Origin: Spirochaetota bacterium | GTDB lineage: Bacteria > Spirochaetota > UBA4802 > UBA5550 | Length of the DNA stretch: 34,817 nucleotides | Assembly (NCBI GenBank): GCA_003246895.1 | Contig: QKCL01000024.1 | Span: 1-34,817, forward strand | Reading direction: 5' to 3' | In this document: in pieces, positions 8,825 through 27,721 of the stretch | How the letters are laid out: each line of letters begins with the position of its first letter | How positions within the stretch are numbered: position 1 is the first letter of the stretch | Notes under the pieces: generated by a model | What the model was told of the DNA's origin: nothing | The model's database searches: none | Seen by the model: the letters and a program-made list of their open reading frames with translations, nothing else | Translations under genes and position numbers: made by a program

Positions 8825-8840
8825 TTCAAACCCTCCCTAT

Positions 8841-8876: not shown

Positions 8877-8890
8877 AAAAACAAGTTTCC

Positions 8891-9490
8891 TTACCCCTGA
8901 ATATGGATTAAAATTTCCTCTTCAGTCGGCCAGACGGTCGACTCAATAACCGCTTTTATTTCCTCGTTTGTTTTGCATTTTTCAATCTCGTCAAGTGTGG
9001 AATGATAGATGTTTCTATACATTGCATTGAACTTGCCAAGGCTTTCAATACCGGCTGTGCCGCACAAATATTCCGGATAGCCATATGTGGCGCCGGTTAA
9101 AACATTGAGCTGTTTTTTATCTGAAAATATTTCATTTGATTTATTATCACACATTGACTTTAATGAATCAATAGCCAGCTTTTTAAAGTCGTCAAACTCC
9201 AGCAGCTCAAAAATTTCTTTTTGAACCAGTTCACCTTCCACTATTTTCAGATTGTCCGGAAGCTCCTTTTCTCCGTCCTGTATCTGCTCCACCAGGGTTT
9301 TTTCTCTGATAATAACAGTGCCGTCTTTTTCATCCAGCACCGGATTTTTAAAACTCTTATCTGTTGAAATAATGACATGTTTATCCGGATTAAATGCGTG
9401 ATAAACCTGTGCACTGGTAAGCATCTGTGAAACCGGTGCATTATTTCTGTGCACCTCTTTTTTACTTTCTTTATCATAAACGATATACAT
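8891..9490 (-). CDS. Prophage protein of unknown function, possible receptor-binding-protein chaperone
   Basis: 199 residues, not recognised by any motif. The N-terminus (MYIVYDKESKKEVHRNNAP) is beta-like, the middle acidic with TLVEQIQDGEKELPDN, and residues of about 115-199 are helical (FDDFKKLAIDSLKSMCDNKSNEI, ALTG-like LNVLTGATYGYPEYL). Small acidic proteins with this two-part plan often follow tail-fibre or spike genes and help fold them. Its place directly after the collar-domain protein (12-base gap, TGAGGT ribosome site) favours that reading, but it is inference. The gene is closed by the terminator at 8841-8876. Confidence 0.65.
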   Translation of the reverse strand: MYIVYDKESKKEVHRNNAPVSQMLTSAQVYHAFNPDKHVIISTDKSFKNPVLDEKDGTVIIREKTLVEQIQDGEKELPDNLKIVEGELVQKEIFELLEFDDFKKLAIDSLKSMCDNKSNEIFSDKKQLNVLTGATYGYPEYLCGTAGIESLGKFNAMYRNIYHSTLDEIEKCKTNEEIKAVIESTVWPTEEEILIHIQG

Positions 9491-9502
9491 ACGTGAACCT
9501 CA

Positions 9503-10651: not shown

Positions 10652-10655
10652 ATTT

Positions 10656-10994
10656 TTAGTACTCCAGTTCTATCATTAAAGACACGGTCACCTCTTCGGT
10701 GTGTCCGTTCACAAATTCATAATTAAAAACACTTGTCGGAGTGTTCAATTTTACCTTTTCATCAAAGGCGGACGAAAGTGCGTGAATATCAATTTTATCC
10801 AGGAAAGATTCGTCAGTCTCGTTATCAGAAAAAGTCATTTTAACTTTTCCAATAATTAAAGAGGTATCATTAAGAACATATACCGCCCCGACACGGGGCA
10901 GTATTCCGGATTTATTCTTGATTTTCAGATCAAGAGTGTTTCCAACGGTGGCCCCACTTGCCACCGTATAATCTCTTTGTATTAACTTTTTCAC
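10656..10994 (-). CDS. Small virion-type protein of predicted beta character, function unknown
   Basis: 112 residues. Alternating short strands dominate (VGNTLDLKIKN, GAVYVLNDTSLIIGKVKMTFSD, VFNYEFVNGHTEEVTVSLMIELEY), with no signal or membrane segment. The size and pattern could form a single small jelly-roll or beta sandwich. The gene lies four bases from the spike gene and eleven from the 178-residue protein upstream, so the three probably act together in the virion. I have no recognisable homologue; candidates are a minor capsid, penton or spike-base protein. Confidence 0.7.
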   Translation of the reverse strand: MKKLIQRDYTVASGATVGNTLDLKIKNKSGILPRVGAVYVLNDTSLIIGKVKMTFSDNETDESFLDKIDIHALSSAFDEKVKLNTPTSVFNYEFVNGHTEEVTVSLMIELEY

Positions 10995-11005
10995 ACCCTA
11001 CCCCC

Positions 11006-11542
11006 TTACAGAGAAGCAGGCTTGTAAAGCATACCCTTTACAAAGCAGATAAGCTGTGAATCCGCTTCAGTTGCCGGAACCTTGACATTGAAATCAAGTG
11101 ATTCCCGTTCCCAACGTTCGCCATCTGCACCAAGAAGAGGAATGAAACTTTTGGCTGAAATATCGCCAAATGTGTCTATTGTGTCGTCATGAAGAACGAC
11201 CGGAACGTCGAAGAATTCCAGAAGAGTCCCTTCTTTTATTTCGTTTTCCCCAATCGCCACCTTCATTGTGGCAAGAGAAAGTTTCCCAAGCATCGCCGGA
11301 GTAACCGGAGAGCCGTCTGTCTTTCTGTATGCAAAGCCGACTTTCATAATGTCGAAAATCTGACCTTCAGGAAGTCTTGCTTCACCCTGCTTCCAGTTTG
11401 TTTTTGAACCGCCGGAACCGTGATCCCCGTCAGCCTTAATAAATGCCTTTGCTTCAACCGCTGTTGAGGCGTTAAGGTCTATTGCATAATAGAAAGTTTT
11501 TTCTATTCCAAAGTATCTTTTACCAGCTATTTGAAAAATCAT
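11006..11542 (-). CDS. Candidate capsid protein of predicted beta character (178 aa)
   Basis: 178 residues without signal peptide or membrane span. Sequence blocks such as KRYFGIEKTFYYAIDL, ATMKVAIGENEIKEGTLLEFFDVPVVL, SLDFNVKVPA and SQLICFVKGMLY suggest a mostly beta fold with a long hydrophilic loop near 35-60 (GDHGSGGSKTNWKQGE). The protein is about the size of the small single-jelly-roll capsid protein of Thermus phage P23-77 (VP16). The match is one of size and predicted character only; no sequence homology is claimed. AAGGACGG lies before the ATG. In a tailless phage block this is my first choice for a capsid shell component, ahead of its 112-residue neighbour. Confidence 0.6.
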   Translation of the reverse strand: MIFQIAGKRYFGIEKTFYYAIDLNASTAVEAKAFIKADGDHGSGGSKTNWKQGEARLPEGQIFDIMKVGFAYRKTDGSPVTPAMLGKLSLATMKVAIGENEIKEGTLLEFFDVPVVLHDDTIDTFGDISAKSFIPLLGADGERWERESLDFNVKVPATEADSQLICFVKGMLYKPASL

Positions 11543-11559
11543 CTTCTTACCGTCCTTTT

Positions 11560-12045
11560 TTAGTTTTTAGATGTATGAGTTGCAAGGGCCTGCCTGTTTA
11601 TTACTCCGTTATTTGCCGGAATCGTTTTTAAAACGTTCTGCCCTGCCTCAATAAAATTGTTTGCATAATTTCTGACATTTGAACCTGTTACAACCCCGCT
11701 GACTGTATTAACCGGCGCCCCCAGTTCATATGCTGCCTTTTGGAAGAACTGCTGTGTTTTCCCGCTTGTCTTTGTTGACAGATGCGCAAACAGGTCACGC
11801 ATAAACGGAACTGACCCAATGGCCATGCCGGAAACGAAAAGGGCCTTTGTAAGTTCCTTATCATTTTTTACAACCGCACCCATGAGAGCCGGAACGACAA
11901 TTACACTTATATGTGCAAGGTATTTATATGGAATCCTCACCGCCACAAATGTCTGATATATCAGAGTGGCAAAGATTGCCAGGTATGCTTCTTTCCCTTT
12001 GAAAAGTTCAAGAAACGCATTTACATCAAAACTTTTCTTTTTCAT
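11560..12045 (-). CDS. Prophage multi-span membrane protein
   Basis: 161 residues. Hydrophobic stretches at about 21-36 (AYLAIFATLIYQTFVA), 43-58 (LAHISVIVVPALMGAVV) and 66-80 (ALFVSGMAIGSVPF) predict two or three membrane segments, followed by a polar Ala/Asn/Gln-rich C-terminal half. The function is unknown. In membrane-containing phages such proteins sit in the internal lipid vesicle; a holin or assembly role is an alternative. AAGGAG before the ATG, with five bases between it and the gene upstream. Confidence 0.65.
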   Translation of the reverse strand: MKKKSFDVNAFLELFKGKEAYLAIFATLIYQTFVAVRIPYKYLAHISVIVVPALMGAVVKNDKELTKALFVSGMAIGSVPFMRDLFAHLSTKTSGKTQQFFQKAAYELGAPVNTVSGVVTGSNVRNYANNFIEAGQNVLKTIPANNGVINRQALATHTSKN

Positions 12046-12050
12046 TTATT

Positions 12051-12644
12051 TTATCTCCTTCCTTTTTTCTTACCTTTATTCATTAACAGAAAGCCACCGG
12101 CCAGAATTGCACCAATGATAAACATTTTGCTGTTATCTTTGGTTGTGGTCTGTCCGCCTGTTGGAATCACATTTGAGGGGTTTACTATACCCCCAGAAGT
12201 ACCACCGGACTTAAAAACCTGTAAAGGGTTATAGGCATATTGAATCAGGGAATCAGTTCTGTTTTTATACAGTGCCTGGAGAACCTGTAAAATCTGCCAT
12301 TCCTCAAAACTGGCAACCGGTTTTATTTTTTCTACAAATGCGCTGTAGTTATCCGGAGTTACAAGTTCGCTCGCCTGGTATGAAAAAAGCATATAAGATA
12401 AAAGGATATGCTGCACATACCACCATGTAACCATGGTAACGCCGGATTGTTTCAGCTTGTATTGTATCTGACTTATTATAGCCTCAAAAAGTGTGATTGA
12501 CTCTGTCCTGGTCGCTCCTGAAGCAAGGCCGTATGTTCTGCTTGCTTTCTGAAGGAAAACAGAAGTAAACGGCGAATAAATATTACTGCTATTATAAAAA
12601 TTTTGCAGTGTATCAATTTTATCAATGTATCGAGTATCTATCAT
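12051..12644 (-). CDS. Prophage protein with C-terminal membrane anchor
   Basis: 197 residues. Residues 1-145 are mainly helical with aromatic patches (VTWWYVQHILLSYMLFSYQ). Residues 146-172 are a Gly/Thr/Pro-rich linker (SGGTSGGIVNPSNVIPTGGQ). Residues 174-188 (MFIIGAILAGGFLLM) form one membrane span, ending in a strongly basic tail (NKGKKKGRR). The design fits a virion membrane protein that displays its N-terminal domain on one side. No family is recognised. The gene is four bases from its neighbours on both sides. Confidence 0.65.
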   Translation of the reverse strand: MIDTRYIDKIDTLQNFYNSSNIYSPFTSVFLQKASRTYGLASGATRTESITLFEAIISQIQYKLKQSGVTMVTWWYVQHILLSYMLFSYQASELVTPDNYSAFVEKIKPVASFEEWQILQVLQALYKNRTDSLIQYAYNPLQVFKSGGTSGGIVNPSNVIPTGGQTTTKDNSKMFIIGAILAGGFLLMNKGKKKGRR

Positions 12645-12647
12645 CTT

Positions 12648-13394
12648 TTACACCCATCCAATATATACAATTTGAACCGGAGGGAGTGAGACGCTGTCAA
12701 TGTCTCCGCCGGTAACATGCGCAACCAGTACCTGGTCCAGGTATTCAGTATTTATGCCTGCATCCATGAATATGATTTTAAGCAGTTCAATAAATTCTTT
12801 CTGCTTTATTGCATCTGCTCCAATGAGTTCAAGGGCAAGTTTCAGCTGCTTCTTTATGTTCGCTTCTGATGTATCCTGGAGTATTGCAGCTATGTAATTT
12901 TCGATAGAGGGGTACTGCTGAATAAATTCCTCAAACTCCTCTTTTTTGCCGTAAGTTTCATAAACCAGTTTTGCATAGTTTATAACTTCCATTTGCATTT
13001 CCCATGCAGTCTTCCCAGCAACGTAAATCTCTCCGATAACTGGAACCGCTTCCAGGGCTTCATCTGCCATTTCAACAAGAGGCTTTATGAGAGGATTATT
13101 TTTAATTTCGTCAATCTGTTCTTTGTATGCGTCAAACTCCGTTTTTAACGGGTCATAGTATTCTGATTTTAAAGCCTGTGCTTCATCAACAACAGCTTTT
13201 ATTTCATCAATAGGCACAGTTCTGGAGAGGCTTTCAAGTTCTGCTTTCATTGCCTCCTGTTTGGCCTTTGCCTTTTCAATAAGTGATGAGACAGTTGTTG
13301 ACTGTCCGCCGATAGTTACAACGGCATCTGTCACCTGTTGAACGGCTGAAGTTACAGAACTAACGGCATGTCTTATTGCACTTCCCAATCCCAT
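12648..13394 (-). CDS. Long helical prophage protein, possible pilot / minor capsid protein
   Basis: 248 residues, predicted almost wholly helical from residue 35 on, with a coiled-coil-like stretch KAKAKQEAMKAELESLSR and a second at KSEYYDPLKTEFDAYKEQIDEI. A short apolar segment (ALEAVPVIGEIYVAGK) lies mid-protein. The Gly-rich N-terminus MGLGSAIRHAVSSV resembles DNA-pilot and minor proteins of microviruses by general character only. A role in genome delivery or in bridging membrane and capsid is inference. It follows directly on the 68-residue membrane peptide gene. Confidence 0.62.
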   Translation of the reverse strand: MGLGSAIRHAVSSVTSAVQQVTDAVVTIGGQSTTVSSLIEKAKAKQEAMKAELESLSRTVPIDEIKAVVDEAQALKSEYYDPLKTEFDAYKEQIDEIKNNPLIKPLVEMADEALEAVPVIGEIYVAGKTAWEMQMEVINYAKLVYETYGKKEEFEEFIQQYPSIENYIAAILQDTSEANIKKQLKLALELIGADAIKQKEFIELLKIIFMDAGINTEYLDQVLVAHVTGGDIDSVSLPPVQIVYIGWV

Positions 13395-13395
13395 A

Positions 13396-13602
13396 TTACT
13401 TACCTTTCTTCATGGCATTTATTAGCAAAGCAACCAGCACAACCGCAAGCAGTGAAGGGACCAGGGCAATTATTAAATCAAGGGGCACGCCCTTAATTTT
13501 GTATTCTTTCAAATTCACAAAAAATGACTTTATGGCGTCATCTGCTAGTTTCTGTTCTTTTAGCTGTTTTACAAGCTCTGATTCAGAGAAAGCAAGTCCC
13601 AT
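13396..13602 (-). CDS. Small prophage membrane protein (68 aa)
   Basis: An amphipathic helical N-terminal part (ESELVKQLKEQKLADDAIKSFF) is followed by a span at 41-61 (LDLIIALVPSLLAVVLVALLI) and a short basic end NAMKKGK. It could be a structural membrane peptide of the virion or a holin. The gene is one base from its neighbour on each side and shares codon style with the block, which supports it being real. Confidence 0.62.
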   Translation of the reverse strand: MGLAFSESELVKQLKEQKLADDAIKSFFVNLKEYKIKGVPLDLIIALVPSLLAVVLVALLINAMKKGK

Positions 13603-13603
13603 G

Positions 13604-13786
13604 CTATTTATCCTTTACACTTTCAGCTGTCTTGTTGCGGTACAATTTAAACACCTTTGGTTTTACTAATTCTAAGTTGAAGCTGAATGAAATTCTTTTG
13701 AAAAAAGAGAACACAAACGCCAGCTTTAAACGTACATTCCGGATAACTTTTTGAGATAGCTTTTCCTGTGATCTTTCTCTTTTCAT
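13604..13786 (-). CDS. Small basic prophage protein (60 aa)
   Basis: 60 residues with about 17 Lys/Arg and few acidic ones (MKRERSQEKLSQKVIRNVRLK at the start). There is no membrane span. It may neutralise packaged DNA, as the J protein does in microviruses; this is inference from charge and position. The start overlaps the stop of the protease gene (13783-13786, ATGA type) and it ends one base before the 68-residue gene. That perfect tiling is the main evidence that it is translated. Confidence 0.55.
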   Translation of the reverse strand: MKRERSQEKLSQKVIRNVRLKLAFVFSFFKRISFSFNLELVKPKVFKLYRNKTAESVKDK

Positions 13787-14181
13787 ACTTCCACCTTAAA
13801 AATTTTAACAATCGGTTTATCATATAGCTGACCGATCAGCAGCCGAGAGTCTGTAAAATCATAAGGAACACAGCTCCCATTGATATGAAGCCCAGAACAG
13901 ATATGATAAAGCCCTTCCTTAACATTTTGAAAAATGATATAAAACGGGATATTATTTTCATAAAAGTACCTTATTCCAATTCTTAACTTTTCGCCACAGT
14001 CTCCGCCGTTGTTGATTATGTCGCCTGATTCCCTGCTGAAATTCTCAAGAAACTGTTCTTTAAAAGGCACTCCAGACATAAATCCAAAAAACCTATTGAG
14101 ATCAAACGTCTTAATTTCTCCAGGAATATCTTTCTTTTTCGCTTCATCAATCAGCCCCACAGCGTACTGTGTAAAATCCAT
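13783..14181 (-). CDS. Transglutaminase-like cysteine protease of the prophage
   Basis: 132 residues. NNGGDCGEKLRIGIRYF (57-73) with Cys62, LYHICSGLHING with His93, and VPYDFTD with Asp108 give the order and spacing of a Cys-His-Asp triad in the transglutaminase/papain-like fold found in some phage proteins (GDCxxxA ... H ... DxT). Possible roles are virion protein maturation, peptide cross-linking, or cleavage of cell-wall peptides during entry. It overlaps its upstream neighbour by one base and its downstream one by four. The match rests on these short motifs, so the fold is probable and the role open. Confidence 0.6.
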   Translation of the reverse strand: MDFTQYAVGLIDEAKKKDIPGEIKTFDLNRFFGFMSGVPFKEQFLENFSRESGDIINNGGDCGEKLRIGIRYFYENNIPFYIIFQNVKEGLYHICSGLHINGSCVPYDFTDSRLLIGQLYDKPIVKIFKVEV

Positions 14182-14342
14182 TATCTGTATTTTCTCTGAA
14201 GGGTTTCCTTCTTTTTCTTGTCTGCTTCAATCTGCTTACATCTTTTATCCCAGTTCCTCATCCTGTCGTCGAACTTTTCCCAGGATTTTATTGTGGCTGA
14301 AGCTTTTGGCCTTTTGGGTCTTTTTGGTTTTTTCGTTGCCAT
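14181..14342 (-). CDS. Lys/Arg-rich small prophage protein (53 aa), first gene of late block
   Basis: Reading from the ATG at 14342 (GGAG seven bases upstream) gives 53 residues starting MATKKPKRPKRPKASA, very basic, with a helical middle and end. An upstream in-frame Met lies inside the promoter region and has no ribosome site, so I reject the longer 64-residue form. The character suggests nucleic-acid binding: DNA condensation in the virion, or late regulation. Its stop overlaps the start of the protease gene by one base. Confidence 0.62.
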   Translation of the reverse strand: MATKKPKRPKRPKASATIKSWEKFDDRMRNWDKRCKQIEADKKKKETLQRKYR

Positions 14343-14361
14343 AATGAACTCCATTAAAATT

Positions 14362-14419
14362 ATTATACTATACAAATATTATGTATTTCGCCTTAGCATA
14401 CTATACATATGTTTGTCAA
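14362..14419 (-). promoter_or_regulatory. Late-block promoter with paired ATACTATACA operator-like repeats
   Basis: Reading leftward, TATAAT occupies 14367-14362, about 20 bases before the late-block start codon. The sequence at -35 spacing is not consensus (CGAAAT). ATACTATACA (plus-strand reading) is repeated exactly at 14365-14374 and 14398-14407, 33 bp apart (about three helical turns), the first copy overlapping the -10. A TTGACA also lies at 14419-14414 but has no -10 at standard spacing. This looks like a regulated promoter where a phage or host protein binds two sites on one DNA face. Confidence 0.5.
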
Positions 14420-14553
14420 TAAAAAAATGAAAAAAAGAGGTTTTTTGCTTGCTTTTATACAGATGTTTAGTAGTTTGAGGGCATACGAATTCCTTACCCC
14501 TTTAGGCTCAAATTGAGGGATTCGAGCATGTTTGCAAATAATATTGTGGTATA

Positions 14554-14579
14554 AAGAGGCCCCGAAAGGGGCCTTCTTT
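14554..14579. terminator. Intrinsic terminator ending the Rep (early) operon
   Basis: AGGCCCC (14557-14563), loop GAAA, GGGGCCT (14568-14574), followed on the plus strand by TCTTTATT and on the minus strand by CTTTAT. It overlaps the stop codon of the leftward 65-residue gene and separates the Rep block from the late block. About 210 non-coding bases follow before the late genes. Confidence 0.8.
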
Positions 14580-14775
14580 ATTGTCTGATTCGGATCAGCT
14601 CCAGAACATCTTCCCTGGCAAATTCTTCACTGGCCTTTACTCCATTTGCGTCTATTATGTCGAACTGGTCCATTGTAGAAATTCCGATCACCAAAACTTT
14701 ACCTTTTCCGAATTCTTTATTTATTAACTCTGTCATTTTAGGCAGGTCGCCCGCTTTACCAAAATAAAACATCAT
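14578..14775 (-). CDS. Small prophage early protein (65 aa)
   Basis: 65 residues, not recognised. A hydrophobic strand KVLVIGIST flanked by a helix (LPKMTELINKEF) suggests a small alpha/beta fold; there is no Walker motif. AAGGGGG lies before the ATG and the start overlaps the upstream stop by four bases. It is the last gene of the Rep operon. It might assist replication, for example by binding Rep or ssDNA, but nothing in the sequence proves that. Confidence 0.6.
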   Translation of the reverse strand: MMFYFGKAGDLPKMTELINKEFGKGKVLVIGISTMDQFDIIDANGVKASEEFAREDVLELIRIRQ

Positions 14776-14999
14776 TGTATTTGTCCCCCTTTCTCCATCT
14801 GATTTAATTTATCTGCGAGATCGTCCATTCTATTTGAGATCTCTATTTTTTCGTTGCTCAAATCACCGATTTCAACAAAAAGCATATCTATTCTTTTCTG
14901 TACCCGCCCAAGCTCTCCGGCTGCCTTAATAAGTTCCTCTCTAAAATTTATAAGGTTTTCGGCTGTTTTTTTTATTCCATCCAGATTTATACTTCCCAC
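14772..14999 (-). CDS. Small coiled-coil prophage protein (75 aa, GTG start)
   Basis: 75 residues from a GTG at 14999, supported by GGAGG seven bases upstream. Almost the whole chain is heptad-like helix (ENLINFREELIKAAGEL, RVQKRIDMLFVEI, EKIEISNRMDDLADKLNQME), predicting a coiled-coil dimer. The TAGTG arrangement shares one base with the stop of the preceding gene, a sign of translational coupling. Function unknown; it belongs to the replication module by position. Confidence 0.6.
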   Translation of the reverse strand: MGSINLDGIKKTAENLINFREELIKAAGELGRVQKRIDMLFVEIGDLSNEKIEISNRMDDLADKLNQMEKGGQIQ

Positions 15000-15331
15000 T
15001 ATTCCGCCTCCTCCTCTGTGTTTTTCAACTTACCCAGTATGCTCGGAAGCCTGGAGCCAAACGCCCAATATGAAGCAAACTTTTCTTTCCGGATATACTC
15101 CAGCAACTCTTCCAGGTATTTCGCTTCATGTTGTGAAAGCTCAAGCGTTATATTCTCACTCAGGCTTTTTTCCTTTTCTGCAGATTCAAGGTCTTTAATT
15201 GCTCTTCCAAGACCTTCAAACCGGCCCCTAAAATAATCTTTCATCGGGTTGTTATAGTCGTATTTATCCATTGAAGTCAAAGCGTCATCTGCTCTTTCTT
15301 TTAATTTTACTATCACGTCTAAAAGTTTCAT
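14999..15331 (-). CDS. Small helical prophage protein (110 aa)
   Basis: 110 residues, helical and charged, with MKLLDVIVKLKERADDAL at the start and LSQHEAKYLEELLEYIRKEKF in the second half. AAGGAG precedes the ATG. It follows rep by 51 bases on the same strand. No domain is recognised; association with Rep or control of replication would be the position-based guess. Confidence 0.6.
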   Translation of the reverse strand: MKLLDVIVKLKERADDALTSMDKYDYNNPMKDYFRGRFEGLGRAIKDLESAEKEKSLSENITLELSQHEAKYLEELLEYIRKEKFASYWAFGSRLPSILGKLKNTEEEAE

Positions 15332-15382
15332 TTTTATTACTCCTTCATATTCTGCATTACGCAGTTTTAATTTGCGACCGAG

Positions 15383-16336
15383 TTAGTCATAAACTTCTAC
15401 AAAACTTATCTTGTTACATTCAACAACAGCTTCTTTTATTTCGATATCCGGAGGAATTGAGCCTAAAATGTGCCGTACTGCTTTATAATCCCACAGTCTG
15501 GTCATGCGTGTTTTTCTGCATTGTGCCTGAATTATAACAAGGGAATTCAGGCACAGTTGTTCACATAACCAACACCGGCCGGCCTTGAGTTTGTCCGGAC
15601 AGTCCATTTTTACGGGTTCAACCTTGCAATATCCCCTTACAAATGACCTGGACACCCTGAAAAACCGTTTATTATTCTTAACTACTCCGTACAACCCCAG
15701 TAACTTCTTTTTCTCTTCATCCGAAAGAATCGCACCATATTTGGCTTTTAAAAATATAGCCTTAACACCAGTGAACCCCTTCAGGATGTATTTCAAAACA
15801 TAGTTAACCGCACCCTTACTGTAACACGCATCAACACTTGAAATATGTGGCCATTTGTCCTGGATACTCTTTACGAGTTCAGAATCATCAATAACACCAT
15901 GTTTGAATTTTTTTTGAGTCAGAGGGTTGTATTTATAATCTATGTGGTATCTGAAACAGAATTCTGTTTTGATTAAAAGATGAGCATGGGCCACACCTTT
16001 TCCGGTGGCCTCGACAGTTATAACATAATCGGTCATCCCGACAGTTGCATCTTTCCTGAGCCGGTCCATAAAATACCTGGTATCTTCGCCGAACTCCTCC
16101 CAGCTGCTACCGTTATCGGGATAAGTCAATGTTACATGGATTAAATTACTTACATTTTCATCAACATAAGTAATATCCTGCATTCGTTGTTTTATCTCTT
16201 TTATCCGTCCGTAAACCCTGCAATCATATGCACGGTTTCCACGCTTAGGGGCCAGAACTATTTCAGAGTTATCAAACTCTAAAAAATAAGTTTTGTTAAA
16301 ATGGTTGTCCAGATAATCAATGATTTCCTTGTCCAT
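15383..16336 (-). CDS. HUH-endonuclease rolling-circle replication initiator (Rep)
   Basis: 317 residues. Motif 1 HVTLTY (67-72), motif 2 GVAHAHLLI with the HxH metal pair His117/His119, and motif 3 YVLKYILKG (179-187) with Tyr179 as the likely nicking residue in a YxxK arrangement. These are the three hallmarks of single-Tyr HUH Reps in small phages and plasmids. A C-terminal Cys cluster (C246, C255, C258, C262) may bind zinc. Rep would nick one strand at the origin, stay bound to the 5' end and start rolling-circle synthesis. No helicase domain is present, so a host helicase is needed. There is no ribosome site before the ATG, and a hairpin precedes it (16352-16375), hinting at limited expression. 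Confidence 0.88.
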   Translation of the reverse strand: MDKEIIDYLDNHFNKTYFLEFDNSEIVLAPKRGNRAYDCRVYGRIKEIKQRMQDITYVDENVSNLIHVTLTYPDNGSSWEEFGEDTRYFMDRLRKDATVGMTDYVITVEATGKGVAHAHLLIKTEFCFRYHIDYKYNPLTQKKFKHGVIDDSELVKSIQDKWPHISSVDACYSKGAVNYVLKYILKGFTGVKAIFLKAKYGAILSDEEKKKLLGLYGVVKNNKRFFRVSRSFVRGYCKVEPVKMDCPDKLKAGRCWLCEQLCLNSLVIIQAQCRKTRMTRLWDYKAVRHILGSIPPDIEIKEAVVECNKISFVEVYD

Positions 16337-21004: not shown

Positions 21005-21037
21005 TTGTTAACCTTTTCTTTTTAAAAAGGTTGACAA
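21005..21037 (+). promoter_or_regulatory. BirA operator overlapping the promoter of the FAS-like/bioF operon
   Basis: TTGTTAACC (21005-21013), 15 bases, GGTTGACAA (21029-21037). The arms are inverted repeats at eight of nine positions, and the motif and spacing match the known bacterial BirA box TTGTAAACC-N14/15-GGTTTACAA. The right arm contains TTGACA (21031-21036), a -35 element with AAGAAT at 21055-21060 (18-base spacing) as a possible -10. Biotinoyl-AMP-loaded BirA bound here would block transcription. A BirA with an N-terminal HTH is encoded at 26750-27721. Confidence 0.85.
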
Positions 21038-21073
21038 AAGGGTGACGTAAAAACAAGAATATTTCATAATGCT

Positions 21074-21373
21074 ATGAAAGAAGTGATTAATAATACCGTT
21101 TTATTTGATGAAAATGACTCTATCTATAAAGTACACTTTCCGGATTGTCCTGTTGTTCCAGGCAGTATAATTATAGATATGTTTTTAAAAGTTGTTATTT
21201 CTTCCAGGTCTGATTGCAGATATGAAGTTGGAAATTTTAATTTTATGAAATTCGTCATGCCCGGCCTTTATAGTTTTTCAATTGAATTTGAAAGTGGAGC
21301 TGCCAGATGCAGACTATACAGAGACAGTGAGCTCCTTTCTAAGGGAGTAATTGAATATGAAGCCGTCATCTAA
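21074..21373 (+). CDS. Short FabZ/FabA-like hotdog protein, predicted 3-hydroxyacyl-ACP dehydratase
   Basis: 99 residues. VHFPDCPVVPGSIIIDM (19-35) corresponds to the FabZ helix motif HFPGxPVMPGVLIIE: His20 is present, the Gly after HFP is Asp, and the catalytic Glu position holds Asp34. The rest forms the hotdog strands but is shorter than the usual 140-150 residues, so it probably needs a partner subunit. A second hotdog protein is encoded at 24301 in the same operon. The predicted role is dehydration of a 3-hydroxyacyl-ACP. First gene of a seven-gene operon; it starts 36 bases after the BirA box and lacks a clear ribosome site. Confidence 0.72.
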   Translation: MKEVINNTVLFDENDSIYKVHFPDCPVVPGSIIIDMFLKVVISSRSDCRYEVGNFNFMKFVMPGLYSFSIEFESGAARCRLYRDSELLSKGVIEYEAVI

Positions 21374-22079
21374 AAATAACAGAATTCTTATTTTAGGGGG
21401 AACCTCGACACTTGCTCTTGAACTTGCCAAAAGATTGCTTGATGGAAAATTTTTTTACCCTATTCTTACGTTTAGAAGTCAATCCGGACAAAATAGGATA
21501 AACCATACTCTTGCAGAGCATTGCGGAAAATTTGGCACTGTCCATTTTGATCTGTCTAATCCGGAAACGTTTAATGAATGTGTCAGGATTAATTCATCAT
21601 ATATAGTTGATTTTGCACATTCAGATTATGAATCACTCATAGCTTCTTCTGATCCGGATAAAGTTGCTGAATATTTTAATACTAACGTTTCTAACCGTGC
21701 AATTTTTTTGAGAGAAGTATCGAGATATATGTTGTTAGGACGCTTCGGAAGACTTGTCTATGTATCTTCTGCAGCAGCGGTAAGGCCTAATCCGGGACAG
21801 GGATTTTATGCTGCAGCGAAAACCGCATCCGAAATTCTTTATAAATCAGTAGGTTGTGAACTTTCATCTAAAGGGGTGACAACAGTCAATGTAAGACCTG
21901 GGTATATCAGAGCCGGAAGAGGAAAAGATTATCTTGAGAAACATGCATCGGTCAGTACTGACTATATTGTATCTGAAAAGGATGTTGCAGATACTATTAT
22001 TTTCCTTTTGTCAGATAGTGCGTGCAGGATTAACGCAGCAGAGATTGTAATGGATGGCGGAATGTCATCTTTAAAATAA
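21357..22079 (+). CDS. Short-chain dehydrogenase, FabG-like 3-oxoacyl-ACP reductase
   Basis: 240 residues from the ATG at 21357 (GGGAG nine bases upstream); it overlaps the previous gene by 17 bases. LILGGTSTLALELAK (11-25) is an altered nucleotide-binding loop, VYVSSAAAV supplies the catalytic Ser near 137, and FYAAAKTASE gives Tyr151 and Lys155. The C-terminus has the PGYI and GxxMxxDGG elements of FabG-type enzymes. Expected reaction: NAD(P)H reduction of 3-oxoacyl-ACP to the 3-hydroxy form. The glycine motif is GGTSTLA rather than GxxxGIG, so cofactor preference cannot be read off. Confidence 0.82.
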   Translation: MKPSSKNNRILILGGTSTLALELAKRLLDGKFFYPILTFRSQSGQNRINHTLAEHCGKFGTVHFDLSNPETFNECVRINSSYIVDFAHSDYESLIASSDPDKVAEYFNTNVSNRAIFLREVSRYMLLGRFGRLVYVSSAAAVRPNPGQGFYAAAKTASEILYKSVGCELSSKGVTTVNVRPGYIRAGRGKDYLEKHASVSTDYIVSEKDVADTIIFLLSDSACRINAAEIVMDGGMSSLK

Positions 22080-22101
22080 TGAAATTTAAAGGGGTTGAAT
22101 A

Positions 22102-22464
22102 ATGCTTCAGGAAATACAGTCAATAATAGAAGAGATACTGGATATTGACGGAAATACCGTTACTCCGGAAACATACGTTATACGAGATCTTGATGCAGAA
22201 TCAATAGATCTGCTTGAACTAGCAGTTGCTCTCAATTCAAATTTTGACGTCAAGATTATAGATGAGGATATTTTCCTTCGTTCTCTCAGGATTTATGTTA
22301 CGGAAGCCAGAGAAAATGGTGAAGATGTAATAAAGTTTCTTCTAGGAAGGTATCCTTTTATTACAGAAGAAAGAGCGGCAGAAATCCTTGATGATATGGA
22401 AAATAGCCCTGTGTTAAAAGTGAAGGATCTTATCAGTTATATTGAATGGAGAAAGTCTTTCTAG
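22102..22464 (+). CDS. Dedicated acyl carrier protein with extended C-terminal half
   Basis: 120 residues, against about 77 for a normal ACP. DLDAESIDLLELAVAL (29-44) is the phosphopantetheine site with Ser34, in an otherwise normal first half (helix I QEIQSIIEEIL). After NSNFDVKI the usual short helix III region is replaced by about 40 extra residues (FLRSLRIYVTEAREN to RAAEILDDMEN) before the final VKDLISYIEWRKSF helix. AAAGGGG precedes the ATG. A private carrier with a changed surface would keep its chain apart from the house ACP. Fits the FAS-like operon; needs a 4'-phosphopantetheinyl transferase from elsewhere. Confidence 0.85.
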   Translation: MLQEIQSIIEEILDIDGNTVTPETYVIRDLDAESIDLLELAVALNSNFDVKIIDEDIFLRSLRIYVTEARENGEDVIKFLLGRYPFITEERAAEILDDMENSPVLKVKDLISYIEWRKSF

Positions 22465-23097
22465 GTGGATTCATTTGATAAAACTCTAAGAGGCAGAAAA
22501 AGTGTTAGAAGCTACTCCGATGCTGTACCTGATGAGGATACAGTGAGAAGTATCATTGATGCGTCACTTTACTACCCTTCCCCATCGGGATCTCATAATG
22601 CAAGATTTGTCCGAATTGGCAGTTCCGATGCAAGAACTTTTATACGGGAACATATGACCAACAAGCGGGACTCTATGCTTTCAGTGATTGGTAATTCTAA
22701 AAACTCCAAAAGGCTCAGGAATTATATAAATGCATACTGGAGATATTCGGAATTCATGTTTAATAGTCCTGTGTTGATTTCTGTTGAGCAGCAAATACCT
22801 GAATCTACTTTTACAGGGGCCCTTCTTCGTGCCGGACTTGTTAGTTCAGATGAAAGTGAAATGAATAACTTTTTTATGGCCATTGGGGCATCAATCATGG
22901 CTTTCCAGCTCAAGGCTCATTCCATGGGGCTCGGGAGCTGTATACTCACTGCTCCGCTGAATTTTATGGACAGGTCTGTAATTTTGAGTGAACTCGGAAT
23001 TGATCCTGAATGCTTTCTTACCCTTGGATACCCATCAGATTCTGAGATAACTTTACGTGAAAATTATAATACTGAATCATTTTACAGGGAGATATGA
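22465..23097 (+). CDS. Nitroreductase-family FMN protein, possible enoyl reductase of the operon
   Basis: 210 residues from a GTG that directly follows the ACP stop codon. GRKSVRSYSD (10-19) is the family's FMN-phosphate motif; YPSPSGSHNARFVRI and MGLGSCILTAPLNF are the further flavin-contact regions. Family enzymes transfer hydride from NAD(P)H through FMN to nitro, enone or other acceptors. Inside this operon all fatty-acid cycle steps except enoyl reduction have a clear enzyme, so I infer that this protein may reduce the enoyl-ACP. An oxidase role on the product is the alternative. Overlaps the next gene by four bases. Confidence 0.8.
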   Translation: MDSFDKTLRGRKSVRSYSDAVPDEDTVRSIIDASLYYPSPSGSHNARFVRIGSSDARTFIREHMTNKRDSMLSVIGNSKNSKRLRNYINAYWRYSEFMFNSPVLISVEQQIPESTFTGALLRAGLVSSDESEMNNFFMAIGASIMAFQLKAHSMGLGSCILTAPLNFMDRSVILSELGIDPECFLTLGYPSDSEITLRENYNTESFYREI

Positions 23098-24314
23098 ACA
23101 TGTCTAATCGGGCAGTTATTACTTCATTCGGCATAATATCATCTCTCGGCTGTGATGAGAGTGAAATACTTGATTCGTTTATTAATAAAAGAACAAGTTT
23201 TAAAAAATCAGAATATGATGAATCAGTATCAGTATCACCCGTAAATAATTTTGCTCTAAAGGATTACACCGGACAGTTTAAGGAAAGACGATACCTTACA
23301 AGGGGTGTATCTTTTGCTCTTGCCTCTTCCATATCGGCATTTAAACGCTCCGGCCTCAAAGAGTGTGATCTTGCAGAATCGGGTTTGCTTGTGGGGACTG
23401 GACCCAATCTTGACATTACTTCAGATTTCAGAGATGTTGCTGATGGAGTACCGGATATGGCAAATCTTAATGCCCTGTGGATTTTAAAATATCTGCCAAA
23501 TACTGCAGCTTCTTCAATCGCAAAGTATCTTAAAATTCATGGAGAAAACATTACTGTCGGTACTGCCTGTGCTGCTTCTCTTCAGGCCATAGGTGAAGGG
23601 TACCGTAAAGTCAGGGATGGATACTGTGATATTGTTTTTGCAGGTGGAGGAGACAGCCGTATCTCTCCCGGCGGAATACTTTCATACAAAATGGCAAATG
23701 CACTGAATACAGCTACAGAAGTACCGGATCTATCCAGTATGCCCTTTGATTTAAACAGGAAGGGATTTGTGCCGGGTGAAGGAGGAGCTTTTGTCGTAAT
23801 TGAATCCCTGGAGCACGCAGAAAAGAGGAATGCGGAAATAATTGCTGAAATATCCGGATTCGGATCCTCCATGGATGGTCATGCCATGACAGATCCTGAT
23901 CCAGCGGGAGTTAAGGGAGAACTCGCAGTCCGAAAAGCACTTGCAGAGGCATCACTTGATCCAGGGGATATTGATTTTATATCTGCGCATGGAACAGGTA
24001 CTGCCATGAACGATTCCATGGAGTCCGGAATCATAAAGCGTGTATACGGCAACTCATCTCCGGCAATAGGAGCCTTCAAGTCATGGATAGGGCACTGCGC
24101 ATCAGCCTGCGGTGCAATGGAACTTGTACTTTCCCTGATATGTATGAAGAATGATTTTTTTCCTGAAATAAGAAATCTGTCGTCACCAGTTGATAATGAT
24201 CTTAACTTCCTTCTCAATGGCGGCAGCCATAGTTTCGGGAAGATTGCTCTTGAAAATTTCGGATTCGGCGGGCAGAACTGCTCTCTTGTTATAAAAAAGT
24301 ATGATAAAAAATGA
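23094..24314 (+). CDS. Beta-ketoacyl-ACP synthase (KAS I/II, FabF-like)
   Basis: 406 residues, full thiolase fold. GTACAASLQA places the active Cys at 159; SAHGTGTAMND gives His299; KSWIGHCASACG gives Lys329 and His334, so the Cys-His-His set is complete. The C-terminal FGFGGQNCSLV matches FabF. It would elongate an acyl-ACP by decarboxylative condensation with malonyl-ACP. The chain it prefers cannot be read from sequence; in a biotin setting it would have to accept an omega-carboxylated primer or intermediate. There is no second ketosynthase or chain-length factor. Overlaps both neighbours. Confidence 0.93.
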   Translation: MNMSNRAVITSFGIISSLGCDESEILDSFINKRTSFKKSEYDESVSVSPVNNFALKDYTGQFKERRYLTRGVSFALASSISAFKRSGLKECDLAESGLLVGTGPNLDITSDFRDVADGVPDMANLNALWILKYLPNTAASSIAKYLKIHGENITVGTACAASLQAIGEGYRKVRDGYCDIVFAGGGDSRISPGGILSYKMANALNTATEVPDLSSMPFDLNRKGFVPGEGGAFVVIESLEHAEKRNAEIIAEISGFGSSMDGHAMTDPDPAGVKGELAVRKALAEASLDPGDIDFISAHGTGTAMNDSMESGIIKRVYGNSSPAIGAFKSWIGHCASACGAMELVLSLICMKNDFFPEIRNLSSPVDNDLNFLLNGGSHSFGKIALENFGFGGQNCSLVIKKYDKK

Positions 24315-24768
24315 TGATATGAACAGTGTAATTGTAAATACAGGCCTTGATCATTTTTGTCCTCTGCATTGCATAACTCATATAACGGGTGAATACATTA
24401 GTGGAAAAATTATTTTTGTTAATTCTGAATCTTTTATAGCTTTGGAGGCCATGGCTCAGATTTCAGCATATCATACACGTTTTTTGAATGATTTTAATAG
24501 GCATTCATTCCTTCTTAAGGTAAAAAAATGTTCAGGACCGTTTAATGAAATACTTAACGGTGAATATGTTGTAGATTCAAAGATTACAGCACGAACGGAG
24601 ATGGCTTCAACACATAATGTCACGATACATTCCAGTAATAAAGTACTGTTTAAATCAGAAATAATGACAGCCTTTACAGATTACAGTGCTGATTTCCCGG
24701 AAGAAAAATTTAAAAAATATTATAGAGATGTTTTCACATGTTTAATGAAAAATGGCTTAGAAAAATAG
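24301..24768 (+). CDS. Second hotdog protein, FabZ/ApeI-like dehydratase subunit
   Basis: 155 residues. SFIALEAMAQISAY (56-69) matches the FabZ helix around its catalytic Glu (vEAmAQ), followed by FLLKVKKCSG and strands ending in a typical hotdog pattern. The HFPGxPxxPG His motif is not intact (LDHFCPLHCIT upstream is the nearest). Its N-terminal partner in the operon (21074) has the His but not the Glu, so a hetero-oligomeric dehydratase sharing residues between subunits is possible. Starts 14 bases before the ketosynthase stop and overlaps the BioF-like gene by 31 bases. Confidence 0.7.
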   Translation: MIKNDDMNSVIVNTGLDHFCPLHCITHITGEYISGKIIFVNSESFIALEAMAQISAYHTRFLNDFNRHSFLLKVKKCSGPFNEILNGEYVVDSKITARTEMASTHNVTIHSSNKVLFKSEIMTAFTDYSADFPEEKFKKYYRDVFTCLMKNGLEK

Positions 24769-25895
24769 AACTTCAAAAACAGAGCGGCCTCTACAGAAAT
24801 CCTGTCAGGATTGACAAACGGGAAGGCAAATTTATTTGTGTTGATAACAATACAGTAATAAATTTTTCTTCCAATGATTACCTCGGGCTAAGCACTTCCA
24901 GTGATTTAAAACTTGCTGCTTCAAAGAATTTTATGAAATACGGGACATCATCATCATCATCGAGGCTTGTATCAGCAAACTATTCTGTAATAAATGAGGC
25001 AGAGAAAAAATTTGCCGCTTACTTCGGTTATGACGATGCAATTTTTTTTCCGAGCGGTTTTCAGGGTAATCAGGGTATAGTGTCCGCAATTCTTGAGCAG
25101 GACGATATTGCTATATTTGACAAGCATCTGCATGCAAGCAGTATCAAGGGGCTTGTTCTCAGCAAGTGTGATTTTGTCGGATACAAGCACAACTCCATGG
25201 ATCACCTGGAAAGAAAGTGTGTTCACTACGAAAATAAATTCAAGGTCGTACTTACAGAATCCCTCTTCAGCATGGACGGAGATTTTTTAAATGTAGAAGA
25301 GTTTAAAAAATTGAAGGAGAAATACAACTTTTTCAGTGTTGTAGATGAAGCGCATTCCTTTGGAGTATCGGGCCCGGAAGGCAGAGGAATTGCAGGTGAG
25401 GTTGCAGATCTTGCGGTCGGCACATTCGGAAAAGCTCTTGGATTCTTCGGGGCATTTGCTCTCCTTCCAAAAAAAATGAAAGAATATCTTTTTAATTTTT
25501 CATCTCCCCTGATATACACAACCACGTTGCCGGAAGCCCATGCTGCTACTGCAATTGAAATTCTTGATATTGTCAGAAAATCAGATGACAAACGTAGTCA
25601 CCTTCATGCCATGTGTAAGTACATGCGGGAAGAACTTCAAGGTCTGAAGTTCACAGTTCATGGTGATGCACACATACTGTCACCTGAAATCGGGGATGAA
25701 AAACTTTCATCTGAAATGTCAAAAAGGCTGCTTGAAAAGGGTATATTTGTACTTCCTGCGAGATACCCCACAGTTCCCCTTGGCAAATCCATTCTTCGTA
25801 TCAGTTTGACTGCCCTTCACGATAAGTCTGATATTGATAAATTCGTTCAGGCAATGAGTGAAGTCATGAAGGAGATGGGCCTAGTTACTGTTTAG
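24738..25895 (+). CDS. bioF: Alpha-oxoamine synthase, BioF-like 8-amino-7-oxononanoate (KAPA) synthase
   Basis: 385 residues, the size of BioF. FSSNDYLGLS (43-52), SSSRLVSANYSV, FDKHLHASS, FSMDGDF, VVDEAHSFGVSGPEGRG and GTFGKALG with PLP-Lys232 are all standard for the family (BioF, KBL, SPT, ALAS). The reaction joins an acyl thioester with an amino acid, with loss of CO2. The BirA box at the head of the operon and birA downstream favour L-alanine plus pimeloyl-ACP to KAPA. Serine palmitoyltransferase or signal-ketone synthase is the alternative. Overlaps the upstream gene by 31 bases and the convergent hisA by 15. Confidence 0.85.
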   Translation: MFNEKWLRKIELQKQSGLYRNPVRIDKREGKFICVDNNTVINFSSNDYLGLSTSSDLKLAASKNFMKYGTSSSSSRLVSANYSVINEAEKKFAAYFGYDDAIFFPSGFQGNQGIVSAILEQDDIAIFDKHLHASSIKGLVLSKCDFVGYKHNSMDHLERKCVHYENKFKVVLTESLFSMDGDFLNVEEFKKLKEKYNFFSVVDEAHSFGVSGPEGRGIAGEVADLAVGTFGKALGFFGAFALLPKKMKEYLFNFSSPLIYTTTLPEAHAATAIEILDIVRKSDDKRSHLHAMCKYMREELQGLKFTVHGDAHILSPEIGDEKLSSEMSKRLLEKGIFVLPARYPTVPLGKSILRISLTALHDKSDIDKFVQAMSEVMKEMGLVTV

Positions 25896-26645
25896 CTTGA
25901 ATTCATCCATGTGAATTATATTTTCGAATTCAATATCTCCTCCAAAAATATCCAGGGCACTTCCAATGGTCAGGTCAATCTTTCCATTGCCGTGTCTATA
26001 TACCTCTCTTACATCTTCCGCGTTACTGACACCGCCTGCGTAAGTCACAGGAATATCCGAATACTTCGAGAGCATGGAGATCAGTTTCAGGTCAGGGCCT
26101 CCCCTCTTTCCCTCAACATCAGATGCATGAATGAGAAATTCGTCGCAGTATCCTGCCAGCATTGACAGGCTGGAATCTGAAATCTCAAAATCTGTAATGT
26201 CTCTCCATTTGTTTGTGGCAACGTAATATGATTCCTTATATGATTTGCAGCTCAGGTCCAGAACGAGCCTTTGTTTGCCTATTTTTTCAGAGGCCCTTTT
26301 CACCCTTTCAATATCAAGTTTTCCGTCTGTAAAAATGAAAGAAGTAATTATTATATGGGATGCTCCGGCGTCTAGGAATTCGTAGAAATTTTCGTCATTG
26401 AGTCCTCCGCCTACCTGAAAACCTCCCGGGAACACTCTCAGGGCATTTTTTGCTTCTTCTGAATTGCCGGGCCCAAGCATTATTATGTGACCGCCGGTAA
26501 GTCCGTGGAATTTGTAGAGTTCCGCAAAATATGCAGAATCATGTTCTGATACAAAGTTTTCAAGGGTATTGTCTCTGCCCAGTGTTTCTCCGACAATCTG
26601 CTTTACCTTACCCTCATGTAAATCGATACATGGCCTGAACTTCAT
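25881..26645 (-). CDS. hisA: HisA, eukaryotic (HIS6) type ProFAR isomerase
   Basis: 254 residues. MKFRPCIDLHEGKVKQIVG, SYFxxLYK-like AYFAELYKFHGLTGGHIIMLG, VGGGLNDENF, LVLDLSCK and the C-terminal IDLTIGSALDIFGG follow the HIS6 proteins of fungi and plants more closely than the typical bacterial HisA. The catalytic Asp pair lies in CIDLHEG and IHASDVEGKRGG. It converts ProFAR to PRFAR in histidine synthesis. No other his gene is present in the window. GGAG seven bases before the ATG supports the start; its promoter faces that of birA. Confidence 0.9.
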   Translation of the reverse strand: MKFRPCIDLHEGKVKQIVGETLGRDNTLENFVSEHDSAYFAELYKFHGLTGGHIIMLGPGNSEEAKNALRVFPGGFQVGGGLNDENFYEFLDAGASHIIITSFIFTDGKLDIERVKRASEKIGKQRLVLDLSCKSYKESYYVATNKWRDITDFEISDSSLSMLAGYCDEFLIHASDVEGKRGGPDLKLISMLSKYSDIPVTYAGGVSNAEDVREVYRHGNGKIDLTIGSALDIFGGDIEFENIIHMDEFKLNSN

Positions 26646-26665: not shown

Positions 26666-26720
26666 ATATTAAGAATATGTGTTATTATTGTCAACGAAGA
26701 CTGTTAAATTTTTGTTGACT
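26666..26720. promoter_or_regulatory. Divergent hisA/birA promoter region with TTGTCAAC inverted repeat
   Basis: Leftward: TTGACA (26694-26689), 17 bases, TAATAT (26671-26666), a strong promoter for hisA. Rightward: TTGACT at 26715-26720 may be the -35 of birA, but no good -10 is seen. The two -35 elements create the inverted repeat TTGTCAAC (26688-26695) ... GTTGACTA (26714-26721) with an 18-base gap. This resembles a BirA box but is spaced one base too far and lacks the CC/GG inner bases, so autoregulation is only possible. Confidence 0.5.
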
Positions 26721-26749
26721 AATGTATCATTTCAAAATGTCATCTGAAT

Positions 26750-27721
26750 ATGAAGAGCAGAGATAAAATATTAAGTCTTCTTCTCGAAAGCAGGGATCAG
26801 TGGCTCTCGGGAGAACATATCAGCAGCCTGCTAGGTATATCACGTACCGCTGTATGGAAAAATATTAATACCTTGAAGGAGATGGGGTATTCAATTGAGT
26901 CATCCAGCAGGCTCGGGCATAAACTTGTCTCATCAGTTAATGTGATGAACCAGTCTGAGCTGGTGAAACATCTTGATACCGTGTTTCTTGGACGAAATAC
27001 CCTGTTTCTGAATGAAACAGATTCAACAAACATTCAGGCGTTCCGTCTTGCTGATCAGGGTGCTGTACATGGTACTGTTGTTGTAGCCGAATCTCAGACT
27101 ATGGGAAAAGGAAGATTAAGCAGGAAATGGTTTACCGATCCCGGCAATGGACTTGCCGTTTCCATGATACTACGTCCCCAGATACAGCCCATTCTGGCTC
27201 CCAGACTCACACTCGTGACAGCCGTTGCCTTATCCGAGGTTCTTGACAGTATCGGTTTGAATTCCTATATGATAAAATGGCCCAATGATATTCTCATTAA
27301 TAACAAAAAAGCTGCCGGAATTCTTTCTGAAATGAAGGCAAATATTGACTATGTCGAATTTGTAATAATCGGAATGGGAATAAATATTAATACTGACACA
27401 TCTACTCTTCCTGATGAGATAAGGGATATTGCATGTTCAATCAGCGAAGAGCTTGACTCTGAAGTATCGCGGGTGAAATTTCTTGCTGATTTTTTAAACA
27501 GTTTCGAACGCTGTTACGACCGTTTCCTTTCGGGAGATTTTGCCGGTATTCTTGAGAAGTGGATAAAGAAGTCTGGAATATTAAATAAACAGATTAAAGT
27601 AACAATTCTCGAGAAAGAAATATTTGGAACAGTAACATCTGTGAATGAGGATGGAAATCTCATACTTGAGACAGATGAGGGAATAAAGGTAATTAACTCC
27701 GGAGATATCAATTACGTCTAG
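26750..27721 (+). CDS. birA: Bifunctional biotin--protein ligase / biotin operon repressor BirA
   Basis: 323 residues. Residues 5-65 are a winged HTH (LSGEHISSLLGISRTAVWKNINTLKEMGYSI). The ligase domain shows TDSTNIQA, VVVAESQTMGKGRLSRKW for biotinoyl-AMP binding, KWPNDILINNKKAAGILSEM and GMGININ. An SH3-like C-terminal part ends in GTVTSVNEDGNLILETDEG. It charges biotin carboxylases with biotin and, because it has the HTH, should repress biotin genes; the box at 21005-21037 is a fitting target. Its end overlaps the convergent mini-cytochrome gene by four bases. Confidence 0.95.
   Translation: MKSRDKILSLLLESRDQWLSGEHISSLLGISRTAVWKNINTLKEMGYSIESSSRLGHKLVSSVNVMNQSELVKHLDTVFLGRNTLFLNETDSTNIQAFRLADQGAVHGTVVVAESQTMGKGRLSRKWFTDPGNGLAVSMILRPQIQPILAPRLTLVTAVALSEVLDSIGLNSYMIKWPNDILINNKKAAGILSEMKANIDYVEFVIIGMGININTDTSTLPDEIRDIACSISEELDSEVSRVKFLADFLNSFERCYDRFLSGDFAGILEKWIKKSGILNKQIKVTILEKEIFGTVTSVNEDGNLILETDEGIKVINSGDINYV

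Follow-up and report, generated by a model that had tools for sequence, protein, structure and literature searches.

A BirA-linked fatty-acid-synthase-like operon ending in bioF in a member of the Spirochaetota: comparison with the Desulfovibrio-type biotin clusters

A new pathway to the pimeloyl moiety of biotin was predicted by Rodionov et al. in 2004 from fatty acid synthase (FAS)-like genes in biotin (bio) operons of Desulfovibrio (PMC545781). Transposon fitness data of Trotter et al. (2023) demonstrated a requirement for the D. vulgaris cluster in the absence of biotin, since mutants in this cluster, including those in both FabZ-like genes, grow poorly without it; a private acyl carrier protein (ACP) working without methyl esters was proposed (PMC10102598). 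Similar clusters occur in other Desulfobacterota and in Desulfurispirillum (PMC10102598). Here we describe an equivalent seven-gene operon from a Spirochaetota bacterium, located on contig QKCL01000024.1 of assembly GCA_003246895.1, of which positions 1 to 34,817 of the forward strand, hereafter called the window, were analyzed. The operon very probably represents a self-contained module of the Desulfovibrio type leading from pimeloyl-ACP formation to 8-amino-7-oxononanoate (KAPA) and repressed by biotin-loaded BirA at 21005-21037. Gene content and order, linkage to bio genes, BirA boxes, catalytic residues and the failure to find BioC or BioW point to this assignment.

The Desulfovibrio-type operon (DVU2558-DVU2565) and that of the window share the gene order FabZ-like, FabG-like, ACP, ketoacyl-ACP synthase (KAS), second FabZ-like and bioF, as well as predicted control by BirA. 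BioC and BioH have not been reported there, and BioC was not found here. In contrast to the D. vulgaris genome with its unlinked and distantly related DVU1220, a nitroreductase gene lies within the operon of the window. Furthermore, bioB and bioD-bioA are encoded elsewhere, and in the Spirochaetota host no discrete FabF or FabD was found. The clusters of Syntrophobacter and Desulfobacter (Trotter et al. 2023) and our loci L072, L075 and L077 contain the nitroreductase gene as does the window. In L072 and L075 the cluster is preceded by bioB and bioA and followed by bioD, whereas the seven genes of the window stand alone.

Two further routes share features with this locus. In E. coli, BioC and BioH also lead to pimeloyl-ACP by elongation of the fatty acid type, followed by BioF. 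However, the carboxyl group is masked as a methyl ester and general type II enzymes are used, whereas the window encodes dedicated enzymes in a genome without a detected BioC. The BioZ route of alpha-proteobacteria likewise bypasses BioC and BioH by means of a condensing enzyme tolerating a free carboxyl group. It relies on the FabH-type BioZ and glutaryl-CoA without a private ACP set, in contrast to the FabF-like KAS and the private ACP of the window.

The original prediction, made from the letters of the window, referred to a FAS-like proposal for Desulfovibrio bio operons. This proposal does exist (PMC545781), and in view of the two studies of 2004 and 2023 the inference of the original prediction amounts to a hypothesis already in print and backed by genetics. 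The biotin pathway, the private ACP, BioF as the final enzyme and control by BirA are supported, whereas the claimed novelty of the nitroreductase is not. New in our study is the presence of the module in two distant members of the Spirochaetota and, in the genome of the window, its separation from bioB, bioA and bioD. A literature search that lacked most subscription journals retrieved no account of the cluster from spirochaetes.

Gene content and BirA boxes of the operon

All genes of the operon are encoded on the forward strand, and neighbors mostly overlap or abut, with a widest gap of 22 nt. The operon and its upstream region comprise the following features:

21005-21037, + strand: BirA box TTGTTAACC-N15-GGTTGACAA, 5' of the seven-gene operon, both arms perfect
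21031-21036, + strand: -35-like TTGACA within the right half of the BirA box
21055-21060, + strand: AAGAAT, weak -10 match, 18 nt past TTGACA
21074-21373, + strand: hotdog A, short FabZ/FabA-like subunit; weak FabA/FabZ-like family match (E 0.001)
21357-22079, + strand: FabG-like short-chain dehydrogenase/reductase (SDR), presumed 3-oxoacyl-ACP reductase; SDR family match
22102-22464, + strand: private ACP of 120 aa; phosphopantetheine (PP)-binding family, Ser34 in AESIDL
22465-23097, + strand: nitroreductase-family flavoprotein, candidate enoyl-ACP reductase; GTG start, Pfam Nitroreductase E 5e-23
23094-24314, + strand: KAS, FabF-like ketoacyl-ACP synthase; ketoacyl synthase family, Cys159-His299-His334
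24301-24768, + strand: hotdog B; Glu49 in ALEAMAQ, AlphaFold2 model with a hotdog fold
24738-25895, + strand: BioF, 8-amino-7-oxononanoate synthase; pyridoxal phosphate (PLP) Lys232, distinct clade tied to the cluster

The gene list of the original prediction proved right. Six of the products were assigned by family matches, and hotdog B, for which no match was found in Pfam or NCBIfam, by its predicted structure. Catalytic residues are intact in KAS, ACP and BioF. The KAS is presumed to be the condensing enzyme for the omega-carboxyl chain. It is 51-56% identical to the KAS proteins of Desulfobacterota clusters compared to at most 38% identity to those of sampled relatives from the same phylum, and the SDR shares 43-48% identity with its Desulfobacterota counterparts. 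A conserved Lys or Arg near the acyl pocket of the KAS was considered as binder of the carboxyl group and rejected, as the alignment gave no firm position for this residue within the pocket. The ACP extends about 60 residues beyond the PP-binding domain (22282-22464). This C-terminal extension is strongly conserved (R91, I95, D98, P103 and a KVKD motif) and terminates in a conserved xVLKVKDLISYI sequence.

The box at 21005-21037, described as near-perfect in the original prediction, turned out to be perfect in both arms of the consensus TTGTAAACC-N14/15-GGTTTACAA (PMC545781). In 40 first-order Markov shuffles of the window, which preserve dinucleotide frequencies, no sites with 0-2 mismatches occurred, and the mean number of those with 3 mismatches was 0.5 per window. 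The pattern TTGTNAACC-N13..17-GGTTNACAA was found at only 2 places in the entire 3.57 Mb genome, in which a reversed control pattern had 0 sites. Since the right arm of the box contains the TTGACA hexamer, bound BirA would cover the promoter, if this promoter is real.

The second perfect box precedes bioD-bioA, between bioD and the divergent cobT (L007:1501-1534); transcription of cobT may also be touched by this box. A box with one mismatch is located 20 bases ahead of the bioB open reading frame (ORF). In addition to the operon, bioB and bioD-bioA are predicted to be under control of BirA. Downstream of the operon, the following features were identified:

25881-26645, - strand: hisA, between bioF and birA
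26688-26721, + strand: weaker BirA-like box (N16, 3 mismatches) between hisA and birA, 5' of birA
26750-27721, + strand: birA, encoding a helix-turn-helix domain and a biotin-protein ligase (family matches), 0.9 kb downstream of the operon

The helix-turn-helix domain agrees with the repressor-type birA of the original prediction, and self-control of birA through the box at 26688-26721 is possible. The hisA gene scored above the NCBIfam cut-off for the 'hisA_euk' type and is not the usual bacterial HisA.

Biotin genes, fatty acid synthesis and relatives

Family searches of the draft genome (95.7% complete, 3.57 Mb) support a role of the operon in biotin synthesis. The bioF gene of the window is the single real bioF of this genome; a second bio operon with its own bioF, which would have spoken against the original prediction, was not found. 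All three of bioA, bioB and bioD are present away from the operon, each under a BirA box. Together with the one bioF this means that de novo biotin synthesis is encoded. As already noted for the window, BioC and BioW routes are not visible: the best BioC match reached 93 bits compared to a cut-off of 185, and the family search gave no BioW; no individual searches were made for BioH, BioI and BioZ. The best BioC-like match (L013) was rejected as a generic methyltransferase, the gene of which lies close to small heat-shock-type genes. The lack of a detected BioC agrees with a private ACP operating without methyl-ester masking as far as tested. The operon is the sole candidate found for the first stage of biotin synthesis. 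The bioA of this genome (L009:5634-6929) shares 55-61% identity with bioA of some loci of Gammaproteobacteria, Bacteroidota and Verrucomicrobiota type, and 35-38% with that of Desulfobacterota clusters. Thus, the biotin genes seem to be of mixed origins.

BioF carries the PLP Lys as well as the DEAH and HAS motifs. Its best match in the Protein Data Bank is BioF of E. coli (273 bits), with Kbl and serine palmitoyltransferase scoring lower. Its score of 327 bits lies below the cut-off of 426 bits of NCBIfam TIGR00858, a threshold passed by no more than 5 of the 13 control genomes with a match, and is read as that of a divergent BioF clade.

In the host of the window, the usual discrete enzymes of type II fatty acid synthesis seem to be missing. 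Apart from the operon KAS, a FabF-family search of the genome retrieved only domains of a single protein of 4,086 residues on contig C22 (L184:2956-15213, G000:C22), which also contains the only FabD homologue. Discrete FabF or FabD proteins were not found outside the operon by family searches, in which FabH, FabI, FabK and AcpP were not included. With two ketosynthase domains, an acyltransferase domain, six ACP domains and a ketoreductase domain, and with a phosphopantetheinyl transferase gene next to it, the giant protein looks like a synthase of the polyunsaturated fatty acid or polyketide type. No FabF-type match at all was obtained from a number of well-covered genomes of the family and order of the host, among them G001, G004, G009 and G011, which suggests a loss of type II fatty acid synthesis in much of the order. 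The BioC/BioH route borrows general type II fatty acid enzymes (PMC7645780). Given the giant synthase and the lack of detected FabF and FabD outside the operon, this route looks unavailable in the host, as it would have little to borrow, and a self-contained module appears to be a sensible solution.

The KAS as direct query of genome contigs gave no match. A BioF profile run over 84,980 species retrieved seven loci at 51-60% identity, the next matches having at most 40%. These seven loci belong to deltaproteobacterial or Desulfobacterota assemblies or to metagenome-assembled genomes labelled just Proteobacteria or Pseudomonadota. Loci L072, L075 and L077 show the order bioB, (bioA), hotdog A, SDR, ACP, nitroreductase, KAS, hotdog B, bioF. 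Here, the seven genes are flanked by bioB-bioA and an adjoining bioD in L072 and L075, and follow bioB in L077, where bioD lies about 8 kb further on. BioF and KAS from these loci are 51-59% and 54-56% identical to those of the window, respectively. BirA boxes with 0-1 mismatch occur 5' of the bio genes in all three as well as within the cluster loci L175 and L176, and L075 carries a divergent birA. This embedding in Desulfobacterota bio operons, together with the BirA regulon of the host, is consistent with a biotin pathway ending in BioF as originally predicted. In a Desulfobacterales cluster (L074), a 121-aa ORF (VEMRDFRELKVWEKAHLL...) resembling 23S rRNA intervening-sequence-type proteins lies between hotdog B and bioF (L074:3574-3936).

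The BioF proteins of the clusters group in a single, strongly supported clade (SH-aLRT 99) with a long stem (length 1.37); the branching order within this clade is weak. Among 393 Spirochaetota genomes the module was identified in only 2, that of the window and G316 from another family. In the latter (L155, L172) the gene order is the same, but SDR and ACP are separated by an insertion of unrelated genes of about 6 kb, and the stretch read contains no BirA box with up to 3 mismatches. In two other genomes of the phylum, bioF is located in a bioB-bioF-bioH-like (G075) and a bioA-bioF-bioG/bioC-like (G066) cluster, respectively, which look like the BioC/BioH type. The KAS genes of G051 and G090 (38% identity) were rejected as cluster relatives; that of G090 adjoins fabD- and fabG-like genes and belongs to ordinary fatty acid genes.

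An operon directed to another alpha-oxoamine, e.g. a sphingoid-like or prodigiosin-type lipid, appears highly improbable. Alpha-oxoamine synthases next to FAS-like genes do occur in such lipid pathways, and the BioF score is below the family cut-off. However, the BirA box, the position within bio operons in other bacteria, the fact that this is the only bioF in a genome with bioA, bioB and bioD, and the best solved relative being BioF all argue for biotin.

The hotdog pair and the enoyl reduction step

Catalysis by FabZ relies on a His-Glu dyad, and both subunits of the dimer contribute residues to the active sites of hotdog proteins (PMC2698920). In the module, these residues seem to be distributed over two genes. 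Hotdog A contains an invariant His (His21 in the window) in a motif of the HFPxxPVVPGS type in 8 out of 8 clusters. The position corresponding to the FabZ Glu is variable, with Asp (Asp35 in the window), His, Glu or Gln. An acidic residue is found there in 3 clusters and His or Gln in the other 5. Hotdog B contains an invariant Glu in a motif of the E-x-[LM]-AQ type in 12 out of 12 clusters and lacks the HFP loop. Desulfovibrio sequences are not part of these counts. Profile alignments to a FabZ-like protein placed hotdog A exactly over the HFPGxPVxPG loop and left a gap of 14 residues at the same loop for hotdog B; direct comparison of the two hotdog profiles aligned nothing useful. The single-chain dyad of homodimeric FabZ is not seen, as the conserved His is present in A only and the conserved Glu in B only.

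AlphaFold2 models of both proteins (pLDDT 92.5 for A and 78.4 for B) show FabZ-type folds, and the combination of two unequal FabZ-like chains is that of ApeI:ApeP. The best match of hotdog A was the ApeI chain 6qsr_A (Z score 13.6, root mean square deviation (rmsd) 1.8, 96 aligned residues); one FabZ and a protein of uncharacterised function scored within 1 Z unit of it. Hotdog B matched the ApeP chain 6qsr_B (Z score 13.6, rmsd 3.2, 117 aligned residues) and FabZ proteins with Z scores up to 15.3. The ApeI:ApeP dehydratase (6qsr) of aryl polyene synthesis likewise combines a short and a longer FabZ-like hotdog. It differs in pathway and substrate, and in that its heterocomplex has been solved, whereas ours is predicted from sequences and models. 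In the reading that fits these data best, hotdogs A and B would be complementary halves of a FabZ active site in an ApeI:ApeP-like arrangement, with one active site per presumed A-B heterodimer.

The main rival to this dimer is a hotdog A acting alone as dehydratase, with hotdog B serving as a thioesterase or in proof-reading, to remove wrong chains from the private ACP. We regard this as unlikely. The fold of hotdog B does match Arthrobacter-type 4-hydroxybenzoyl-CoA thioesterases, which have a Glu at the FabZ Glu position, and three of the hotdog A sequences possess an Asp or Glu at the dyad position. However, His or Gln replaces the acid in the remaining five, hotdog B retains the FabZ-like E-x-[LM]-AQ motif and is devoid of precisely the loop supplied by hotdog A, and the pair matches both chains of a known dehydratase heterocomplex.

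Since the operon provides every other step of the elongation cycle, enoyl reduction is the natural role for the nitroreductase, which we infer to be an enoyl-ACP reductase. It keeps the FMN-type R[RK]S[IV]R start of the family, which predicts binding of flavin mononucleotide. With two Cys only, it is not expected to carry a [4Fe-4S] cluster such as that predicted for DVU1220. A BluB-like flavoprotein and other nitroreductases are the nearest solved relatives, and the nearest NCBIfam model is the C-terminal domain of FbiB (E 1e-10). In F420 synthesis, this domain acts on a C=C bond adjacent to a carboxylate, which it reduces. The gene lies between those for ACP and KAS in 7 of 9 readable clusters, including both from the Spirochaetota; in one of the seven (G398) it is split over contig ends. 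Trotter et al. already reported nitroreductase genes within the clusters of Syntrophobacter and Desulfobacter as possible enoyl reductases, so that this component is not new, and found a biotin phenotype for the unlinked DVU1220 of D. vulgaris (PMC10102598).

Alternatively, a host enoyl-ACP reductase may carry out this step and the nitroreductase may serve another purpose, e.g. redox balancing. A promiscuous enoyl reductase of fatty acid synthesis was offered as an alternative by Trotter et al. (PMC10102598), and two of the clusters are devoid of the nitroreductase gene. We consider this somewhat unlikely in view of the conserved position of the gene and the reaction of its nearest curated family. 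In addition, a discrete FabI-like enzyme, which was not searched for, is not assured in a host without detected discrete FabF and FabD.

Proposed route and implications

In the proposed route, malonyl groups would be loaded onto the private ACP, and the KAS would condense malonyl-ACP with a malonyl or, less likely, a glutaryl primer, the distal carboxyl group of which would stay free. The SDR would then reduce the 3-keto group, the presumed heterodimer of hotdogs A and B would remove water using the His from A and the Glu from B, and the flavoprotein may reduce the enoyl bond. Starting from malonyl, two rounds would result in pimeloyl-ACP, which BioF would join with alanine to form KAPA. BioA, BioD and BioB, encoded elsewhere in the BirA regulon, would finish biotin.

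A glutaryl (C5) primer followed by a single elongation round as in the BioZ route, with all other steps unchanged, appears quite unlikely. The condensing enzyme BioZ can use glutaryl-CoA with malonyl-ACP (PMC7645780), and a single round would ease the specificity problem. However, BioZ is of the FabH type (KAS III) and takes CoA primers, whereas the operon KAS is FabF-like, a class taking ACP-bound primers, and the operon contains no gene for glutaryl activation.

Several observations weigh against a self-contained module as proposed here. No published biochemistry was found for any of its members or for the first stage of the route. The operon encodes no malonyl transferase and the only FabD homologue of the genome resides within the giant synthase, which leaves malonyl loading of the ACP unexplained. 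Clusters L074 and L174 lack the nitroreductase, which was also not found in the rest of the incomplete L074 genome, and thus it cannot be the sole way for its step. Finally, hotdog B is similar to hotdog thioesterases relying on a single Glu as well.

A further element of the window lies apart from the biotin genes:

7509-16336, - strand: small integrated phage-like element with a G2P/ORF2-type rolling-circle Rep (Pfam E 1e-10)

It also encodes an endolysin-like protein, a tail-collar-domain protein and several proteins that are membrane-associated or unknown. A rolling-circle Rep combined with a tail-collar protein is reminiscent of small tailless or single-stranded DNA phages.

We tentatively propose that, in a host without discrete type II enzymes, the seven transferred genes make up an independent minimal synthase for dicarboxylic acyl chains. 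This synthase would combine an enoyl-ACP reductase of the nitroreductase superfamily, a dyad split over two genes, and a private ACP malonylated by its own KAS or by the acyltransferase of the giant synthase. The complementary hotdog pair and a host in which no discrete FabF or FabD was found go beyond the original prediction and are further additions of this study to the published pathway. Standing apart from bioB, bioA and bioD in such a host, the module offers a natural definition of the parts of the pathway and a clean set to reconstitute. If our interpretation is true, the module would reveal the way in which a free terminal carboxyl group is tolerated by a condensing cycle, would add what is to our knowledge the first enoyl-ACP reductase role for the nitroreductase superfamily, and would explain how biotin is made in bacteria without type II fatty acid synthesis.

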